Shown here in pieces: positions 41,272 to 48,012 of a DNA stretch of 48,012 nucleotides; position 1 is the first letter of the stretch; every line of letters begins with the position of its first letter. The translations under genes were made by a program, and so were the position numbers. This DNA is from Sulfurovaceae bacterium. GTDB taxonomy: Bacteria; Campylobacterota; Campylobacteria; Campylobacterales; Sulfurovaceae. The stretch spans positions 1 to 48,012 of the forward strand of contig JAQTLE010000006.1 of the NCBI GenBank assembly GCA_028715055.1. The letters run 5' to 3'. The notes under the pieces are model-generated. The model had not been told where the DNA came from and ran no database searches. It saw only the letters and a program-made list of their open reading frames with translations.

Positions 41272-42000
41272 TTATTCAATCCAATATTTTTCAATCCATG
41301 GAGATGGTTTAATATACCTGTACCATTTTCCGCTTATTCCTTTTATTGCTTCAGGAGGATTAGGTAAACCATGAAATAATATGATTTTGGCACCTTTGGG
41401 AATTGATGGAGCTTTAAACCACGACTTTACCCATGATGGAACACAATGGTATTTAAAACTTGGAACCCAAGCATCATTCCAAAATTGCAGTTTCCCCATT
41501 TTTTTGATCTCGCGTGTCAGATAGGCTTGTTCATGCCTTACTTCGTTTCTTACTTTATTAAAATTTTTTACAAAGTATTCTAAAATATACGGATACTTGC
41601 CTATCTCAAAACGAAAAACCGAAGAATTTCCTTCCATTTTTTCAGGTTTAAGTTTATCATGTGCGATAAGAAATTCACCTGACGCATTAAAAAAATCATC
41701 AATATTGTCAACAATCACAACATCCAAATCAAGAAATAGTGTTTTGCCTGATAATCCTCCAAAATCTTTGGCAAAAACACTAAGTTTTCTCCAGCCTCTT
41801 TCAGGTATATTTTTTGGAATGTCGAGTTCCGGTAATGGTTGGATTTCTACTTCTGGGCGTATATTATTTTTATTATCAGTAAAACATACAAATCTAAAAG
41901 GAATAGTAATATTTCTTTCTACCATACCATATAGTCTGTTGACATATTCTGGGGGAAATTTATCCCCCCATTTCATGCATATTATATTTACTTTTTCCAT
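41272..42000 (-). CDS. GT-A-like glycosyltransferase with DLD motif
   Basis: A 242-residue protein resembling GT-A transferases of the GT8/GT32 sort. It begins VNIICMKWGDKFPPEYVNRLY, has FRFVCFTDNK near 37-46 and the metal-binding DxD as FLDLDVVIVDN near 88-98, and a late His in ILFHGLPNPPEA. It has no signal peptide. It is transcribed toward the plus-strand block and separated from it by 120 bases. The donor is unknown. Confidence 0.75.
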   Translation of the reverse strand: MEKVNIICMKWGDKFPPEYVNRLYGMVERNITIPFRFVCFTDNKNNIRPEVEIQPLPELDIPKNIPERGWRKLSVFAKDFGGLSGKTLFLDLDVVIVDNIDDFFNASGEFLIAHDKLKPEKMEGNSSVFRFEIGKYPYILEYFVKNFNKVRNEVRHEQAYLTREIKKMGKLQFWNDAWVPSFKYHCVPSWVKSWFKAPSIPKGAKIILFHGLPNPPEAIKGISGKWYRYIKPSPWIEKYWIE

Positions 42001-42141: not shown

Positions 42142-42951
42142 TTATTTTAAGTAAGAAGGGAATGATTGATAAAGTTTTTCGCACAAAGTATCAACATAGG
42201 CTTGATACGAAAAATCAGAATTTGAAATGATTTTTAAGATATCATTTTTTGTATCTTGGGTAGTTATCTCTAAAATATTTCTATCAAGCGAGGAATAATA
42301 ATCATTAAATTTAAAATCGCCCCCTTTCAATTCTTGTGAAGTTTTCAATCTGATATTGGGAATTCCGAAAGAATCCGCACAAATCAATCCATGCAAACTT
42401 GAAGAAATGACAATCTCCGAAGAGGATATCTGCCTTAAGATTTCTATCGGATCTCCTGTCAGATCGGCAACCTGACAATTTGAAAAAGAATTTATAAATT
42501 GTTTTATTTCGGGCAATGCTCTATGCATAATATGGGGAATAATTAATATTTTAATTTTTTTATTTTGTGGTTGTATGAGAAATTTTGACAATAAACCAGG
42601 ATCGCCATACGATAAATTATTAATGTTTATCATTTGCTGTGTTAGTTTGCCTCTTATGCTATGGACTACAAAGTTTTTCTTGATCAAATTTTTATTAATT
42701 GGTTTATCTTGGATGAATCCGCTACCCCAAACATGTATCGGATTAGTATTAAAACTTAGTTTCCTCTTCCATAGTTTTTTTAAAACACCATCAAAAATAC
42801 TACCTAATCCTATCAACTCACATTTTTCTATTGAGCAATATCGGACCTTTCTTTTAGAAACAAGTTCAACCAAAATAGGCGACAATTCATCCCCAAAATT
42901 CTTTATTCCACTATGAGAGCGAAAATAGTGCAACTTAATCGAATCATTCAA
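42142..42951 (-). CDS. Polysaccharide pyruvyl transferase family protein
   Basis: A 269-residue member of PF04230. It shows the N-terminal NFGDELSPIL near 17-26, HVWGSGFIQD near 73-82, VHSIRGKLT, YGDPGLL and the C-terminal SSSLHGLICADSFGIP near 197-212. These enzymes add a ketal pyruvate from phosphoenolpyruvate to a sugar, giving an acidic group. Some family members have other substrates, so the reaction is probable, not certain. It overlaps the PP-loop gene upstream by eight bases, suggesting coupled synthesis. Confidence 0.85.
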   Translation of the reverse strand: MNDSIKLHYFRSHSGIKNFGDELSPILVELVSKRKVRYCSIEKCELIGLGSIFDGVLKKLWKRKLSFNTNPIHVWGSGFIQDKPINKNLIKKNFVVHSIRGKLTQQMININNLSYGDPGLLSKFLIQPQNKKIKILIIPHIMHRALPEIKQFINSFSNCQVADLTGDPIEILRQISSSEIVISSSLHGLICADSFGIPNIRLKTSQELKGGDFKFNDYYSSLDRNILEITTQDTKNDILKIISNSDFSYQAYVDTLCEKLYQSFPSYLK

Positions 42952-44167
42952 TTTTTTTTGCTTTTTTTAAGAAATTTTTTAATATTTTTATCAAGGATTT
43001 TAATTTATAAAAAATATAATATATGTATGATTGTAGTGGAAAATGTAAGTTCTTCTGTCTCGAGAGACGATATATCGATTTAGCAGAAGGATAATCATGG
43101 ACAAGTACTCTTCCTAAAAATTTACTTCGGTTTTTTTTATATTTTTTTAGATCAAATGATTTATCATATAGTTCTAATTTGCCTAATAATTCAAAAGTCG
43201 TTAACACTCCTAAACACTTCACACAAGAAGAACAATTTATTCGATTTTTTTCATTTCTTGTGCAAACGTCCAGATATTCATAACTATCTTTTATATTTGA
43301 AACAATTTCCGTTTTTTCGACCCTATTGTACTCTGAACCAATACTGATTATCTCAACATTTTCATTAGATAGCATTTGCAAGACTAGAGGTTCAGCATAT
43401 GCAAGTTCTTCTTTATCATTATTTAACCCTAGGAAGGCATATGGATATGTTGATGAATATAAAAATTTCCTAATTTTATTTTGCAGCAATAATGCAACAG
43501 ACGCATTTCTAATGATCGCGGTTTTTTGAAAATCCAACTTTTTACTTTCATAAAAATCATCGAGATTGGAATTGATCTTTATAAATGGCATTCCTATCTT
43601 TTTTGCAGCAGGTTCAAGTTTATTGTATCTTTTTAAAAATAGTTCATGCCCTTTTTCTTTGCTTCCATGAGATCCTACATTATTAAATGTCAGCATTGTT
43701 ATCTTGGAAGATCTCGGACATTTTGGATTATAAAAATAATCAGCTAGCGTAGTAAATGAATCAATTCCTCCCGAAAAACCAGTCGCACATTCACTGCCTT
43801 GCTGCATAAGCCCGTTATTCGGAGCAATTTCATCAGTATGGATATTGATCATTTTTAAAAATGGCATAATTGTCTGTATTAGCTTTTGAAGTTGATAGGA
43901 TATATTATAATAAAGTCTTTCAGAAACCTTTCCTTCAAGATATATATCTTCCCCATAATACATTGCGGGCAATAATAAACCTACCAAGGCTGCATCAGAT
44001 GAATCTGACATCATATCAGCATACTTTTTATCTAATTCGAAATAGAGTTTTGTAGTATTGATATGCTTTGAGTAGACATCCACCTCATATCTTATAAGGT
44101 CATTTTGTTCAATAAGTTTAGGAATAGAAATTTTCAAATTATGTTCCCCTGCTATCCGATGTTTCAA
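42944..44167 (-). CDS. PP-loop ATPase with QueC-like four-Cys site, unknown function
   Basis: A 407-residue protein. The PP-loop motif SGGIDS is at 132-137, after GSECATGF, and is the mark of N-type ATP pyrophosphatases that adenylate a carboxyl or carbonyl oxygen. Cys 302, 312, 315 and 318 form C-x9-C-x2-C-x2-C, as in the zinc site of QueC. Residues 1-125 are an extra N-terminal domain and the C-terminus (about 385-405) is strongly basic. No queuosine gene is nearby; it lies between GT25 and pyruvyl transferase genes, so a sugar or LOS precursor is a likelier substrate, for example amide or nitrile formation on a uronic acid. The function is inferred, not known. Confidence 0.75.
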   Translation of the reverse strand: MKHRIAGEHNLKISIPKLIEQNDLIRYEVDVYSKHINTTKLYFELDKKYADMMSDSSDAALVGLLLPAMYYGEDIYLEGKVSERLYYNISYQLQKLIQTIMPFLKMINIHTDEIAPNNGLMQQGSECATGFSGGIDSFTTLADYFYNPKCPRSSKITMLTFNNVGSHGSKEKGHELFLKRYNKLEPAAKKIGMPFIKINSNLDDFYESKKLDFQKTAIIRNASVALLLQNKIRKFLYSSTYPYAFLGLNNDKEELAYAEPLVLQMLSNENVEIISIGSEYNRVEKTEIVSNIKDSYEYLDVCTRNEKNRINCSSCVKCLGVLTTFELLGKLELYDKSFDLKKYKKNRSKFLGRVLVHDYPSAKSIYRLSRQKNLHFPLQSYIYYIFYKLKSLIKILKNFLKKAKKIE

Positions 44168-44202: not shown

Positions 44203-44934
44203 CTAAAAACATAACAAATTCATAATAATTGTTTTTGTTCTATAAAACGGGCGTAAAAATTCTCTACGTAATTTGGTTTTTAAATCATGATCTTTTATCT
44301 GAATTGTACTGCCGCCTAAATTTTCAGAATGGTGTTTGACATATGCTCTATTGGTTGTCCATATCGGAATTTTATGTTTGTAAGCAAGTTGCTTCATATT
44401 ATCAACTGGCATAGTGTATGCAGGAAAAGTATCTATAAGTTTTTGAGCCGCGATTTTGCCAATCATGGTACCCATAAAACCCAGTCCACATGTGGAATAG
44501 TGCGTTATTGATAGTTTATCTATTATCGATTTTTTTTCTGATGCCCAAAACCCCTTTTTACCTGAAAAATCTACAATTTCGGATGAGCTGACATTTTGAC
44601 AAATTAAATTTATATCTTCAAATAGCTTTTCATCAATGAGGACATCATCCTCTAGTATTAATGCAAATTTTTCTTCCTGATCGGCAATTTTTCGCCAAAC
44701 ATCCATATATGTTAGATATATTCCGATCTCGCCAGCTTTTGGTAAAGTATAGTGTTCATTTTTTTCTTGAAGTCTAGCATAGATAGGTTTCGTGATCAAT
44801 GCATCGAGCATTTGCCCATCTACTGCTGGAATCCTGATGTATGAAATACCAAATTTATCAAGCTGTTCTTCCATAAATTTTCTACGTTCGGTCGATCTGT
44901 CAAGATTGATAAAATATATTTTTATATCATGCAT
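44203..44934 (-). CDS. GT25-family LOS glycosyltransferase
   Basis: A protein of about 243 residues related to the beta-1,4-galactosyltransferases of LOS synthesis (LgtB/LgtE type). It starts IYFINLDRSTERRKFMEEQL, has KAGEIGIYLTY near 67-77 and the acidic triad in LILEDDVLID near 92-101. The ATG at 44934 is chosen with GGAA 8 bases upstream; a TTG at 44958 adds eight residues without a ribosome site. The sugar is not fixed by sequence. Confidence 0.85.
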   Translation of the reverse strand: MHDIKIYFINLDRSTERRKFMEEQLDKFGISYIRIPAVDGQMLDALITKPIYARLQEKNEHYTLPKAGEIGIYLTYMDVWRKIADQEEKFALILEDDVLIDEKLFEDINLICQNVSSSEIVDFSGKKGFWASEKKSIIDKLSITHYSTCGLGFMGTMIGKIAAQKLIDTFPAYTMPVDNMKQLAYKHKIPIWTTNRAYVKHHSENLGGSTIQIKDHDLKTKLRREFLRPFYRTKTIIMNLLCF

Positions 44935-45119
44935 TATTATATTCCAATATTTTGTCAAATAAAATAGGATTCAAATTTGGACATACTTTTTATTTTATAA
45001 ATTATACTATGGTTTTTTAATTTTTATCTAGAGATTTCTGTGGCTCTCCAAAAAAGTTGACAGATCATATAAGGTTGACATGAAATTTCTAACATTCCTA
45101 ATATAAGTATGGGAGATGC

Positions 45120-46007
45120 TCAACACTTAATACTTAATGCCTTTGCATATGCATAAAGCGCTTCACTTATATATTCTGACAAGGATGCTCCCATTCTGGC
45201 ATTGATCTCAAATATTTTTGTGTATCCATTTTGTAATTTATAATCGATACAGCATACTCCATCATATTCGATAGCATTTAATATATTTTTGAAGCGATCT
45301 AGAAAATGACCATGGTCTACAATTTCTTGAGAATATTGTTTGAATCTTTCTCCTTTTACAAAGTTTTTTTGTGCAAATGTATATTTCATAGTTTTATAAA
45401 AAACTATTTCACCTTGATACATTATAATATGCATGGCATATTCATCTTGTCCTTCTATATATTCTTGCACAAAAAACTCATTAGAATGCAATTCATTTTT
45501 AAATTGGTATTCTGATGCTTCATCATATATGATTATGGTTTTTGAACCATTTTCATCAATTCGTTTTTTGAGTATATATGGATATTGCAAATTTTTAGGT
45601 TTCTTGATCGCACAGTCTTCAAATCCATTTTTTAGAAGAAAATCAGTGAATATTTTTTTATCTAAGCATATTTCGATAGCTTTATTTGACGGCACAATTG
45701 CTTTTTTATAATTTAAATAAGAATAATGTTCGTTAAAATAGTTAGATGCATTTTCTGTCAAAGGAAAGATTAGATAAAAGTTATTGAGGTTTACTTTTTT
45801 AAAATTTGAAAAGCAAGGAAAGCAAGTATTGACATTTTTGATGATTTGATGTTCTCTTGAATATCTTCTGGAAAAAAGGATAGTCTTTTTATAAAAAAAT
45901 TTGCCAATCAATACTCTTAGTCTATTGTTTATTTTCATTAAAATCAATCCTGGCACACGAAAATAGTGAAAAAGTTTTTCTGATAATAAATAATTCAAGA
46001 ATTTCAT
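45120..46007 (-). CDS. ATP-grasp ligase-like protein
   Basis: A 295-residue enzyme of the ATP-grasp superfamily. The first 115 residues are a poorly conserved, basic N-terminal domain. The grasp proper has PYILKKRIDENGSK near 143-156 (nucleotide lysines), VQEYIEGQDEYAMHI near 180-194, CIDYK at 253-257 and the metal site FEINARMGASL at 266-276. It would activate a carboxylate as an acyl phosphate and join it to an amine or thiol. In this locus a sugar-linked amino acid or amide is plausible; the real substrate is unknown. Gaps on both sides are 36 and 185 bases. Confidence 0.8.
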   Translation of the reverse strand: MKFLNYLLSEKLFHYFRVPGLILMKINNRLRVLIGKFFYKKTILFSRRYSREHQIIKNVNTCFPCFSNFKKVNLNNFYLIFPLTENASNYFNEHYSYLNYKKAIVPSNKAIEICLDKKIFTDFLLKNGFEDCAIKKPKNLQYPYILKKRIDENGSKTIIIYDEASEYQFKNELHSNEFFVQEYIEGQDEYAMHIIMYQGEIVFYKTMKYTFAQKNFVKGERFKQYSQEIVDHGHFLDRFKNILNAIEYDGVCCIDYKLQNGYTKIFEINARMGASLSEYISEALYAYAKALSIKC

Positions 46008-46043: not shown

Positions 46044-46553
46044 TTACATATTAATGGGAATCAAATTTCCATTTTTCACTAATATGTTATCCGGTATATC
46101 TTTATCAATTTTTTCTCCAGCAGAAATAACACATCCTTGACCAATTGTTATTCCTGGAAATACAATTACACCTGCTCCAAGCCAGCAATTATCTTTTATT
46201 GTCGTTACCATCCGCTTATCCTTGCCGCATCGAACAATATTCCCAATATTATGAGATGATGACAATATCATACAACGCATGCCTATGGCAACATTCGAAC
46301 CTATGGATACCATTGAAGAATGATCAATAAAGCATTCTTCGTTGATAAATGAATTCTCGCCAATTTCAACCATTCCTTTACATGAATGACCGCCATAAAA
46401 ATTTATATTACGTCTTAATTTAACATTACGTTTGACTATTAAATTTGGATAGGCAGCCCCAAGAAAAATAGCTCTTCGTCTATCATTTAAAATAAATATA
46501 TTACTAAACCAAAATAGCCATGAAAAATAGAAAAATCGCAAATGGTATTTCAT
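46044..46553 (-). CDS. Left-handed beta-helix acyltransferase (hexapeptide repeat)
   Basis: A 169-residue protein of the WcaF/NodL-type acetyltransferase group. Hexapeptide-type repeats run from about 55 to 155 (VEIGENSFINEECFI, VSIGSNVAIGMRC, CWLGAGVIVFPGITIGQG), and the likely catalytic His lies in SSSHNIGN near 93-100. It probably O- or N-acetylates a sugar of the chain. It starts 5 bases after the epimerase stop. Confidence 0.88.
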   Translation of the reverse strand: MKYHLRFFYFSWLFWFSNIFILNDRRRAIFLGAAYPNLIVKRNVKLRRNINFYGGHSCKGMVEIGENSFINEECFIDHSSMVSIGSNVAIGMRCMILSSSHNIGNIVRCGKDKRMVTTIKDNCWLGAGVIVFPGITIGQGCVISAGEKIDKDIPDNILVKNGNLIPINM

Positions 46554-46558
46554 AAAAA

Positions 46559-47566
46559 CTATCCTATAAAATCATAATATTGCATATACCACTTCACAAA
46601 TTTTTCTATTCCATCTGCTAAAGTCGTATCGGGTTTGTAGTTGAAATCTCTTATCAGATCATCTATGTCTGCATAGGTTGATTTCACATCACCTGGCTGC
46701 ATATCCATGAATATCTTTTTGGCCGTTTTACCAAAACTATTTTCAAGTGTTGCTATAAAATCAAGTAATTGCACAGGAGTATTGTTGCCGATATTATAGA
46801 TGCTATATTTTTCTGCCGGATTGTCTATGACATTGATAATGCCATCAACGATATCATCTATATAGGTAAAATCCCTGCTCATATCTCCATGATTAAATAC
46901 TTTTATCTCTTTATCTTGAGTAATAGCATCTGCAAAAAGTATTGGAGACATATCAGGTCTTCCCCATGGACCATATACGGTAAAAAATCTAAGCCCGGTT
47001 GTTTTGATGCCGTATAAATGACTGTATGTATGAGCCATAAGCTCATTTGATTTTTTGGTAGCAGCATATAGGCTTATAGGAGTATCTGTTTTGTCTGTCG
47101 TTCTAAATGGTTGTTCTGTATTTAGCCCATATACTGAAGAGCTAGAAGCATAGCATAAATTTTGTACATCATAATGACGGCAACATTCCAAGATGTTAAT
47201 AAATCCGACAATATTGCTTTGGATGTATGCATCAGGGTTTTCTATGGAATAGCGCACACCAGCTTGTGCTGCTAGATTGCACACGGCATCGAACTTTTGT
47301 GTTTTAAAAAGTTCTTCCATTGATTGCTTATCAGCTAGATCCATCTTTACAAACTTATGATTTGGGAATTTGGAAGATTGTATTATTTCATTACTTTTAG
47401 AATGACGCGCATCAATGCCAAGTTCATCAAGACGGGCGTATTTGAGATTGACATCATAGTAATCATTGATATTGTCAAGTCCAATTACTTCATCACCACG
47501 TTCGAGTAGTTTTTTTGCTAGATGAAATCCTATAAATCCCGCTGTACCTGTTACTAATATTTTCAT
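46559..47566 (-). CDS. NAD-dependent sugar epimerase, UDP-glucuronate 4-epimerase type
   Basis: A 335-residue extended SDR. It has the NAD-binding GTAGFIG at 7-13, catalytic YAATK at 167-171, and the segment NLAAQAGVRYSIENP (97-111) typical of UDP-glucuronate 4-epimerases (LpsL/Cap1J type), which make UDP-galacturonate. The adjacent UDP-sugar dehydrogenase upstream would make UDP-glucuronate, its substrate. UDP-glucose 4-epimerase is less likely because of the signature and pairing. Confidence 0.9.
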   Translation of the reverse strand: MKILVTGTAGFIGFHLAKKLLERGDEVIGLDNINDYYDVNLKYARLDELGIDARHSKSNEIIQSSKFPNHKFVKMDLADKQSMEELFKTQKFDAVCNLAAQAGVRYSIENPDAYIQSNIVGFINILECCRHYDVQNLCYASSSSVYGLNTEQPFRTTDKTDTPISLYAATKKSNELMAHTYSHLYGIKTTGLRFFTVYGPWGRPDMSPILFADAITQDKEIKVFNHGDMSRDFTYIDDIVDGIINVIDNPAEKYSIYNIGNNTPVQLLDFIATLENSFGKTAKKIFMDMQPGDVKSTYADIDDLIRDFNYKPDTTLADGIEKFVKWYMQYYDFIG

Positions 47567-47575
47567 AAATTACCC

Positions 47576-48012
47576 TCAATCATTCCCAAAAAGATCTCTG
47601 CTATAAACTTTGTCTGCTACATCATCCAGCACATCCGCGTGGCGGTTTGCGATGATGACGTCCGACATGGCTTTGAACTTTTTAAGATCACGAATTACAC
47701 GCGAATGAAAAAATTCTTCTTCATGTAGTGTAGGTTCATAAATGACTACTTCTATGCCTTTGGCCTTAATTCGCTTCATAATCCCTTGTATCGCAGAAGA
47801 ACGAAAATTATCTGATCCTGCTTTCATGACTAGGCGATAAATTCCTACTACTTTCGGATTTCTTTTTAGAATACTCTCGGCGATAAAATCTTTTCTTGTG
47901 CTATTTGCATCTACAATCGCACGTATGATGTTGCTTGGTACGTCAGCATAATTGGCCAATAATTGTTTAGTATCTTTTGGCAAACAATAACCGCCATATC
48001 CAAATGACGGGT
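47576..48012 (-). CDS. UDP-glucose 6-dehydrogenase family, C-terminal part (5' end cut off)
   Basis: The frame is open off the right edge. The visible piece starts [16 protein letters not shown], which holds the catalytic Cys of the UDP-glucose/GDP-mannose dehydrogenase family, and continues through the UDP-binding domain ([20 protein letters not shown]). An apparent TTG start at 47983 is just a Leu codon within the conserved motif, so the gene is longer than it looks. It would oxidise UDP-glucose to UDP-glucuronate for the epimerase that follows 9 bases later. GDP-mannose or UDP-ManNAc dehydrogenases are less likely alternatives. Confidence 0.88.

Follow-up and report, generated by a model that had tools for sequence, protein, structure and literature searches.

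The PP-loop enzymes of the QueC fold use ATP to activate carboxyl or carbonyl groups, with the release of pyrophosphate (PMC13329287, PMC10607449). QueC converts a carboxylate to an amide, and then to a nitrile (PMC13329287), and the QueC motifs used here, such as YPDC, YxQxHxxE, and VPxRN, are taken from the same source. NASAT, a PP-loop enzyme of glycan synthesis with the motif CxxC-xn-[GN]xCxxC, is held to convert an N-acetyl sugar into an amidine (PMC10607449), while PesC is an example of the asparagine-synthase-like amidases and nitrile synthetases (PMC13060819). The literature searched yielded no description of the family considered here, or of its pairing with polysaccharide pyruvyl transferases (PPTs).

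The window, that is, the whole stretch of DNA analysed (48,012 nucleotides of a contig of a Sulfurovaceae bacterium), includes a run of minus-strand genes, which is listed here from 48010 down to 41272.

47576-48010, minus strand: UDP-glucose 6-dehydrogenase, C-terminal part, extending past the end of the window (PRK15057, E 2.7e-75)
46559-47566, minus strand: NAD-dependent sugar-nucleotide epimerase of the GalE/TviC/UDP-glucuronate 4-epimerase type (PF01370, E 1.9e-58)
46044-46553, minus strand: hexapeptide-repeat acetyltransferase (PF00132, PF14602)
45120-46007, minus strand: ATP-grasp carboxylate-amine ligase-like protein (PF02655, above the cut-off)
44203-44958, minus strand: glycosyltransferase family 25 (GT25), the next gene upstream of the PP-loop gene (PF01755, E 4.8e-21)
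42944-44167, minus strand: QueC-like PP-loop enzyme, open reading frame of 407 amino acids from a TTG, probable true start at 44137
42142-42951, minus strand: PPT of 269 amino acids, the downstream partner (PF04230, E 7.9e-16, 59 bits against a cut-off of 25.3)
41272-42000, minus strand: 242-amino acid protein at the end of the run (no Pfam or NCBIfam match)

The UDP-glucose 6-dehydrogenase is the predicted supply of UDP-glucuronate in this operon and, together with the epimerase, the putative source of a uronic acid, and the PPT would provide a pyruvyl carboxylate, so that two carboxylates would be open to an ATP-dependent enzyme. The 242-amino acid protein, which is perhaps an unrecognised glycosyltransferase, has a homologue in the glycan locus of a congener (G008; L028 2038-2823). 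Relatives of the window PPT are found in three plasmid matches (H13, H14, and H16) inside genes annotated as family 2 glycosyltransferases, as apparent fusions.

The preliminary description had placed the PP-loop gene at 42944-44167, with SGGIDS at residues 132-137, the cysteines C302-x9-C312-x2-C315-x2-C318, a part of approximately 125 residues N-terminal to the PP-loop, a basic C-terminus, and an eight-base overlap with the pyruvyl transferase gene. The open reading frame, both motifs, and both terminal parts are recovered in the translation, on the minus strand, which had not been stated, whereas the overlap holds if the PPT begins at the TTG at 42951, an alternative in-frame TTG at 42933 leaving a gap of approximately 10 bases instead. 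The in-frame TTG at 44137 (residue 11) is a better start for the PP-loop gene, as it is preceded by AGGGGA, a Shine-Dalgarno-like stretch, and agrees with the start of the homologue in a second congener (G004), so that the protein is probably 397 rather than 407 amino acids long. The predicted domains are an N-terminal domain (11-115), the PP-loop and zinc core (approximately 125-335), and a basic, helical C-terminus. The gene is found in three of 11 genomes of the genus, and the window protein is 58-59% identical to those of the two congeners. The dN/dS ratio against these congeners is 0.14-0.23, with dS near saturation in the pairs that involve the window, and 0.19 between the congeners themselves, which points to the maintenance of the gene by purifying selection. 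The GC content of the gene is 29.7%, and that of its flanks approximately 36%, an AT richness that fits an accessory glycan island.

The window protein reaches the threshold in no sequence match to Pfam, NCBIfam, PADLOC, or the PDB. The QueC profile PF06508 is found at E<=0.01 in four of the 57 family members (best 0.00051), with the displayed scores below the gathering cut-off of 22 bits, and without a match to the window protein. When the family is compared with QueC by hhalign, the whole core is aligned (probability 80, E 1.5e-5), with retention of SGGxDS, RN, the KxEI stretch, and the four cysteines, and loss of YxQxHxxE, YPDC, and the tyrosine after the first cysteine. The region aligned with YPDC, the deazaguanine-recognition motif, is LNNDKEELAYAEPL, and that aligned with YxQxHxxE is FNNVGSHGSKEKG. 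At the VPxRN site of QueC, the window protein has the RN at 217-218 (AIIRNASVA against VPFRNGIFL) without the VP, and most family members lack the RN pair. The zinc motif of QueC, C(x)8CxxCxxC, is represented by C-x9-C-x2-C-x2-C, one residue longer, and a zinc site is predicted.

The AlphaFold models of the window protein (pLDDT 87) and of a homologue from Kiritimatiellales (L031; pLDDT 94) both have the SGGxDS loop on a Rossmann-like core, as in the PP-loop ATP pyrophosphatase superfamily, and most of the high-probability Foldseek matches listed are PP-loop enzymes. For the L031 model, QueC 3bl5 has the top probability (1.00) and target-normalised TM-score (0.64) among the matches listed, none of which has an E-value below 0.001, and QueC 2pg3 has a TM-score of 0.59; for the window model, the Cap9 structure 9nto reaches 0.62. 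The N-terminal domain, of approximately 110 residues, has no solved-structure counterpart among the Foldseek matches listed. The alignment over the full core and the match to 3bl5 bear out the likeness to QueC that had been claimed, in the fold and in remnants of the active site, and the models support the placement of the core of the window protein with QueC and Cap9. A comparison with the WbpG type had also been suggested; NASAT is not among the Foldseek matches listed, and membership of QueC or of WbpG is not supported.

The window protein is not a QueC ortholog, given the loss of the substrate motifs and the presence of the true QueC elsewhere in the genome, as a separate gene on contig C2. 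Tgt lies on the same contig, QueD/QueE on C1, and the window on C6, in agreement with the earlier observation that no queuosine genes are nearby.

A search for two conserved peptides in 84,980 species genomes recovered 74 loci. Plasmids add further loci, including haloarchaeal, Priestia, and Pseudobutyrivibrio examples, and dereplication at 70% identity gave 68 groups. The phage collection searched contains no match to the family. This family, which is spread through many bacterial phyla and the haloarchaea, is essentially without a name in Pfam, NCBIfam, or PADLOC. Alignments of 57-88 homologues show little or no variation at the glycine and aspartate of the PP-loop and at the four cysteines, and G165, N201, R282, and K285 are also conserved throughout the family. 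The window protein deviates at many other conserved positions (W100, D167, W213, D263, H275, D276, E316, R320, and T321).

The members of the family vary in their copy number and architecture. Two to four copies share a locus in L044, L061, L036, L045, L032, and L129, with four in Tomitella, three each in Omnitrophota and Nitrospirae, and two in Priestia. The homologue in G214 (L025 7691-8934), which adjoins an AAA ATPase gene, is split into two frames, and is a decaying accessory gene, while a related copy in G148 (L023 7286-8545) is intact. A member from Paracoccus yeei (P0002; L004 9455-11131) has an extra N-terminal part of 180 residues, PPT-like by eye (SNSIGVRGEITYRYL), and including the stretch SIGVRGEITYRYL, although neither the PPT profile nor Pfam supports the PPT identity of these residues. 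A Woesebacteria member (L056 6857-8650) has a C-terminal extension of approximately 230 residues, which resembles a HAD phosphatase by eye. On large haloarchaeal plasmids, family members have sugar-modifying genes nearby (L128 and L133).

The commonest specific neighbour of the PP-loop gene is a PPT. A clean PPT profile, seeded largely with adjacent PPTs, which it may favour, was run over six-frame translations of the fetched flanks (mostly 7 kb on each side), and recovered a PPT in 31 of the 68 groups. In 22 groups (21 without L086), it lies within 400 bases of the PP-loop gene, whereas random placement within the same loci gives an expectation of 4.0 groups at this distance, with no simulation above 12. 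In 29 of the 31 groups, the PP-loop gene and its nearest PPT share a strand, and Pfam upholds the identity of the PPT in every tested case except L086. A whole-genome search with PF04230, free of the seeding bias, detected just 1-4 PPT genes in the majority of carrier genomes, which makes chance adjacency improbable; five of the 39 carrier genomes, including that of the isolate Thalassotalea mangrovi, lack any detectable PPT. The neighbouring PPT is the sole one detected in five genomes (L037, L047, L056, L076, and L088), the two genes form a lone pair in Azospirillum, A. brasilense included, and the pairing is met again in Priestia and Gemmobacter. On the family tree, the adjacency label needs 18 changes, with scattered pairings, and the paired PPTs belong to several types, so that the association probably arose, or was preserved, on many occasions. 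The two congeners, whose proteins are closest to that of the window, have the gene in a glycan locus with no PPT next to it. The coupling of a PPT to an unnamed, widespread QueC-fold family is a new element.

Glycosyltransferase, PPT, or other glycan genes lie nearby in 40 of the 68 groups, while the other 28, some of them on short contigs, have no PPT or glycosyltransferase in the vicinity. The role in glycan synthesis that had been proposed in the preliminary description is supported for most, but not all, relatives, with strong PPT adjacency. A consistent position of homologues next to genes for tRNA or nucleotide modification had been named as evidence against this role, and the outcome favours the role, since none of the 85 loci examined by tblastn matches the QueC, QueD, QueE, or Tgt of the window genome; a single member, L024, does lie between tadA and a moaB-like gene. 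Standalone copies are known from Sulfuricurvum (L024), G148 (L023), Paracoccus (L004), and Actinobacteria, which indicates that the role may not be uniform.

Asparagine-synthase-like (AsnB-like) genes are recurrent neighbours of the family, with these or GATase genes within approximately 520 bases in eight groups, and in one locus with a PPT in L026, L036, L039, L058, L063, L066, and L072. The ATP-grasp genes recur in the window, L026, L060, L071, L130, and L133, and a relative of the window ATP-grasp gene sits near a PP-loop gene in G169. The genes concerned are as follows.

L063 5034-6833, L066 4804-6606, L039 835-2619, L072 4888-6747: asparagine-synthase-like (GATase plus PP-loop) genes
L060 5219-6856, L058 8084-9724, L026 6637-8430: asparagine-synthase-like (GATase plus PP-loop) genes
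L036 2675-3490: lone GATase domain gene close to the PP-loop gene
L026 8517-9362, L060 9078-11440, L130 8172-9344, L133 7955-9163, with window 45120-46007: ATP-grasp genes

These neighbours suggest that the chemistry of carboxylate to nitrogen recurs around the family, and the ATP-grasp proteins could be ligases for the addition of an amine or amino acid to a glycan carboxylate.

The reading preferred here, at a probability of roughly 45%, is that of a family of QueC-fold enzymes that has an N-terminal domain of its own, shares a pathway of surface-glycan assembly with the PPT, and activates a carboxylate with ATP to form an amide. By analogy with the superfamily, the chemistry would take ATP to AMP, and the substrate, the nitrogen donor, and the product are those that we infer below. 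The PP-loop would bind ATP and adenylate a carboxylate on the glycan, or on a lipid- or nucleotide-linked precursor, with the release of pyrophosphate, and ammonia or an amine, as the nitrogen nucleophile, would then displace the AMP to give an amide, which could conceivably be converted on to a nitrile, as by QueC. A glycan carboxylate appears the likeliest substrate, given that the deazaguanine recognition residues are gone and that the PPT is such a frequent neighbour. The likeliest carboxylate would be the pyruvate ketal from the neighbouring PPT, as the element shared by the different PPT subfamilies and hosts, and the main alternative, a uronic acid, would apply in loci that encode UDP-glucuronate synthesis, such as the window. 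If the substrate is a carboxylate that all pyruvylated sugars share, the pairing of one enzyme family with very different PPTs would be accounted for. Since the recurrent partner is a PPT, the pyruvate carboxylate appears to be at least as good a target as a uronic acid. The narrower proposal, that the family converts this ketal carboxylate into an amide, nitrile, or amine conjugate, a modification of surface glycans not described before, is rather unlikely. The members in non-glycan settings, the genomes with no PPT, the nearest relatives with no adjacent PPT, and the departures of the window protein at conserved residues also indicate that there may be several specificities in the family, with the window subgroup maybe having its own.

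The uronic acid may be the actual substrate, in which case the enzyme would amidate the carboxyl group of GlcA or GalA in a surface glycan, and the PPT, acting on another sugar, would be a mere co-traveller. This is possible because the window operon encodes both a UDP-glucose dehydrogenase and an epimerase, and nucleotide-sugar dehydrogenases are also present in L027, L052, and L058, and on a Priestia plasmid, but the PPT adjacency is well above what co-residence in the same locus would give (22 groups against 4.0). In addition, the lone Azospirillum pair has no adjoining uronate-making genes save a tagaturonate reductase of sugar catabolism. This reading is unlikely, and the uronic acid is perhaps not the main target of the family. 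A small-molecule or nucleotide-level enzyme (sulfur transfer included), carried as a frequent passenger of glycan islands with no direct link to the PPT, would fit the copies that stand alone outside glycan settings (L023, L024, L004, and Actinobacteria) and the 28 groups with no glycan genes nearby, although the immediate, mostly same-strand adjacency recurs across distant lineages and also as lone pairs. This explanation is quite unlikely.

The conversion of a sugar N-acetyl group into an acetamidino group, as by WbpG or NASAT, is improbable. The superfamily, the zinc-cysteine site, and the glycan setting are held in common (PMC10607449), but the cysteine order of NASAT is absent from the window protein, for which membership of the WbpG/NASAT group is rejected on this basis, and its structure is missing from the Foldseek matches listed. 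The hisH and hisA genes of the window were considered as an ammonia supply of the WbpG type and rejected, since they flank lpxL, as in the congener G008, and look like ordinary histidine genes. A protein-modifying enzyme of the QatC/Cap9 kind, perhaps serving defence against phages and acting on the PPT or another neighbouring protein, is highly improbable. QatC has N- and C-terminal extensions, a basic C-terminus, and no YPDC (PMC13279940, PMC13329287), and a weak NCBIfam similarity to QatC is found in three of the 57 members (best E 0.0011), but no PADLOC model is significant in any of the 57, for which a defence identity is rejected. The zinc pattern of QatC, C(x)19CGxCxxRR, is also not that of the window protein, the QatC structures 9vlk and 9zee are not among the 50 Foldseek matches listed, the MGTS/MGGS motif is absent from the PPT N-termini inspected, and the neighbours, which were inspected and clustered, are glycan genes.

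If the preferred reading of carboxylate activation in the PPT pathway is correct, the QueC fold gains one more use beyond tRNA bases and phage defence. If the ketal itself is the target, part of the annotated pyruvylation would end as a neutral or conjugated group and, if the two enzymes share a glycan as substrate, an additional, overlooked carboxyl modification may be present on pyruvylated polysaccharides, and would alter surface charge and recognition. The lone two-gene form of Azospirillum makes the coupling directly testable.

Among the known systems, DUF6395 (PF19932) is weakly and partially matched by 12 of the 57 members, at the cysteine region, and the best E-value of 7e-6 indicates that its cut-off may be reached by one or a few of them, although it covers a fragment only, the displayed scores are under the cut-off, and the window protein is unmatched. 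The asparagine-synthase-like amidases and nitrile synthetases, such as PesC, share the PP-loop activation of a carboxylate for ammonia, but belong to another subfamily, with an N-terminal glutaminase domain. NASAT (WbpG, LpNASAT) is likewise a PP-loop enzyme, takes part in glycan synthesis, and has a zinc site of four cysteines, and differs in its cysteine order and in not being recovered by the sequence search. QatC (qatABCD) and Cap9 (type IV CBASS) are also QueC-core enzymes serving outside queuosine synthesis, and the Cap9 core superposes on the window model; extensions on both sides of the core, known from QatC, are also predicted for the window protein, with no QatC structure among the 50 Foldseek matches listed; they differ in their zinc spacing, partners, and models. 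In comparison with QueC, the window protein has an additional N-terminal domain and C-terminus and lacks queuosine neighbours, YPDC, and YxQxHxxE, but has in common with it the PP-loop SGGxDS, the four-cysteine zinc site, the core fold, the lysine of the KxEI stretch and, in the window subgroup, the RN pair.
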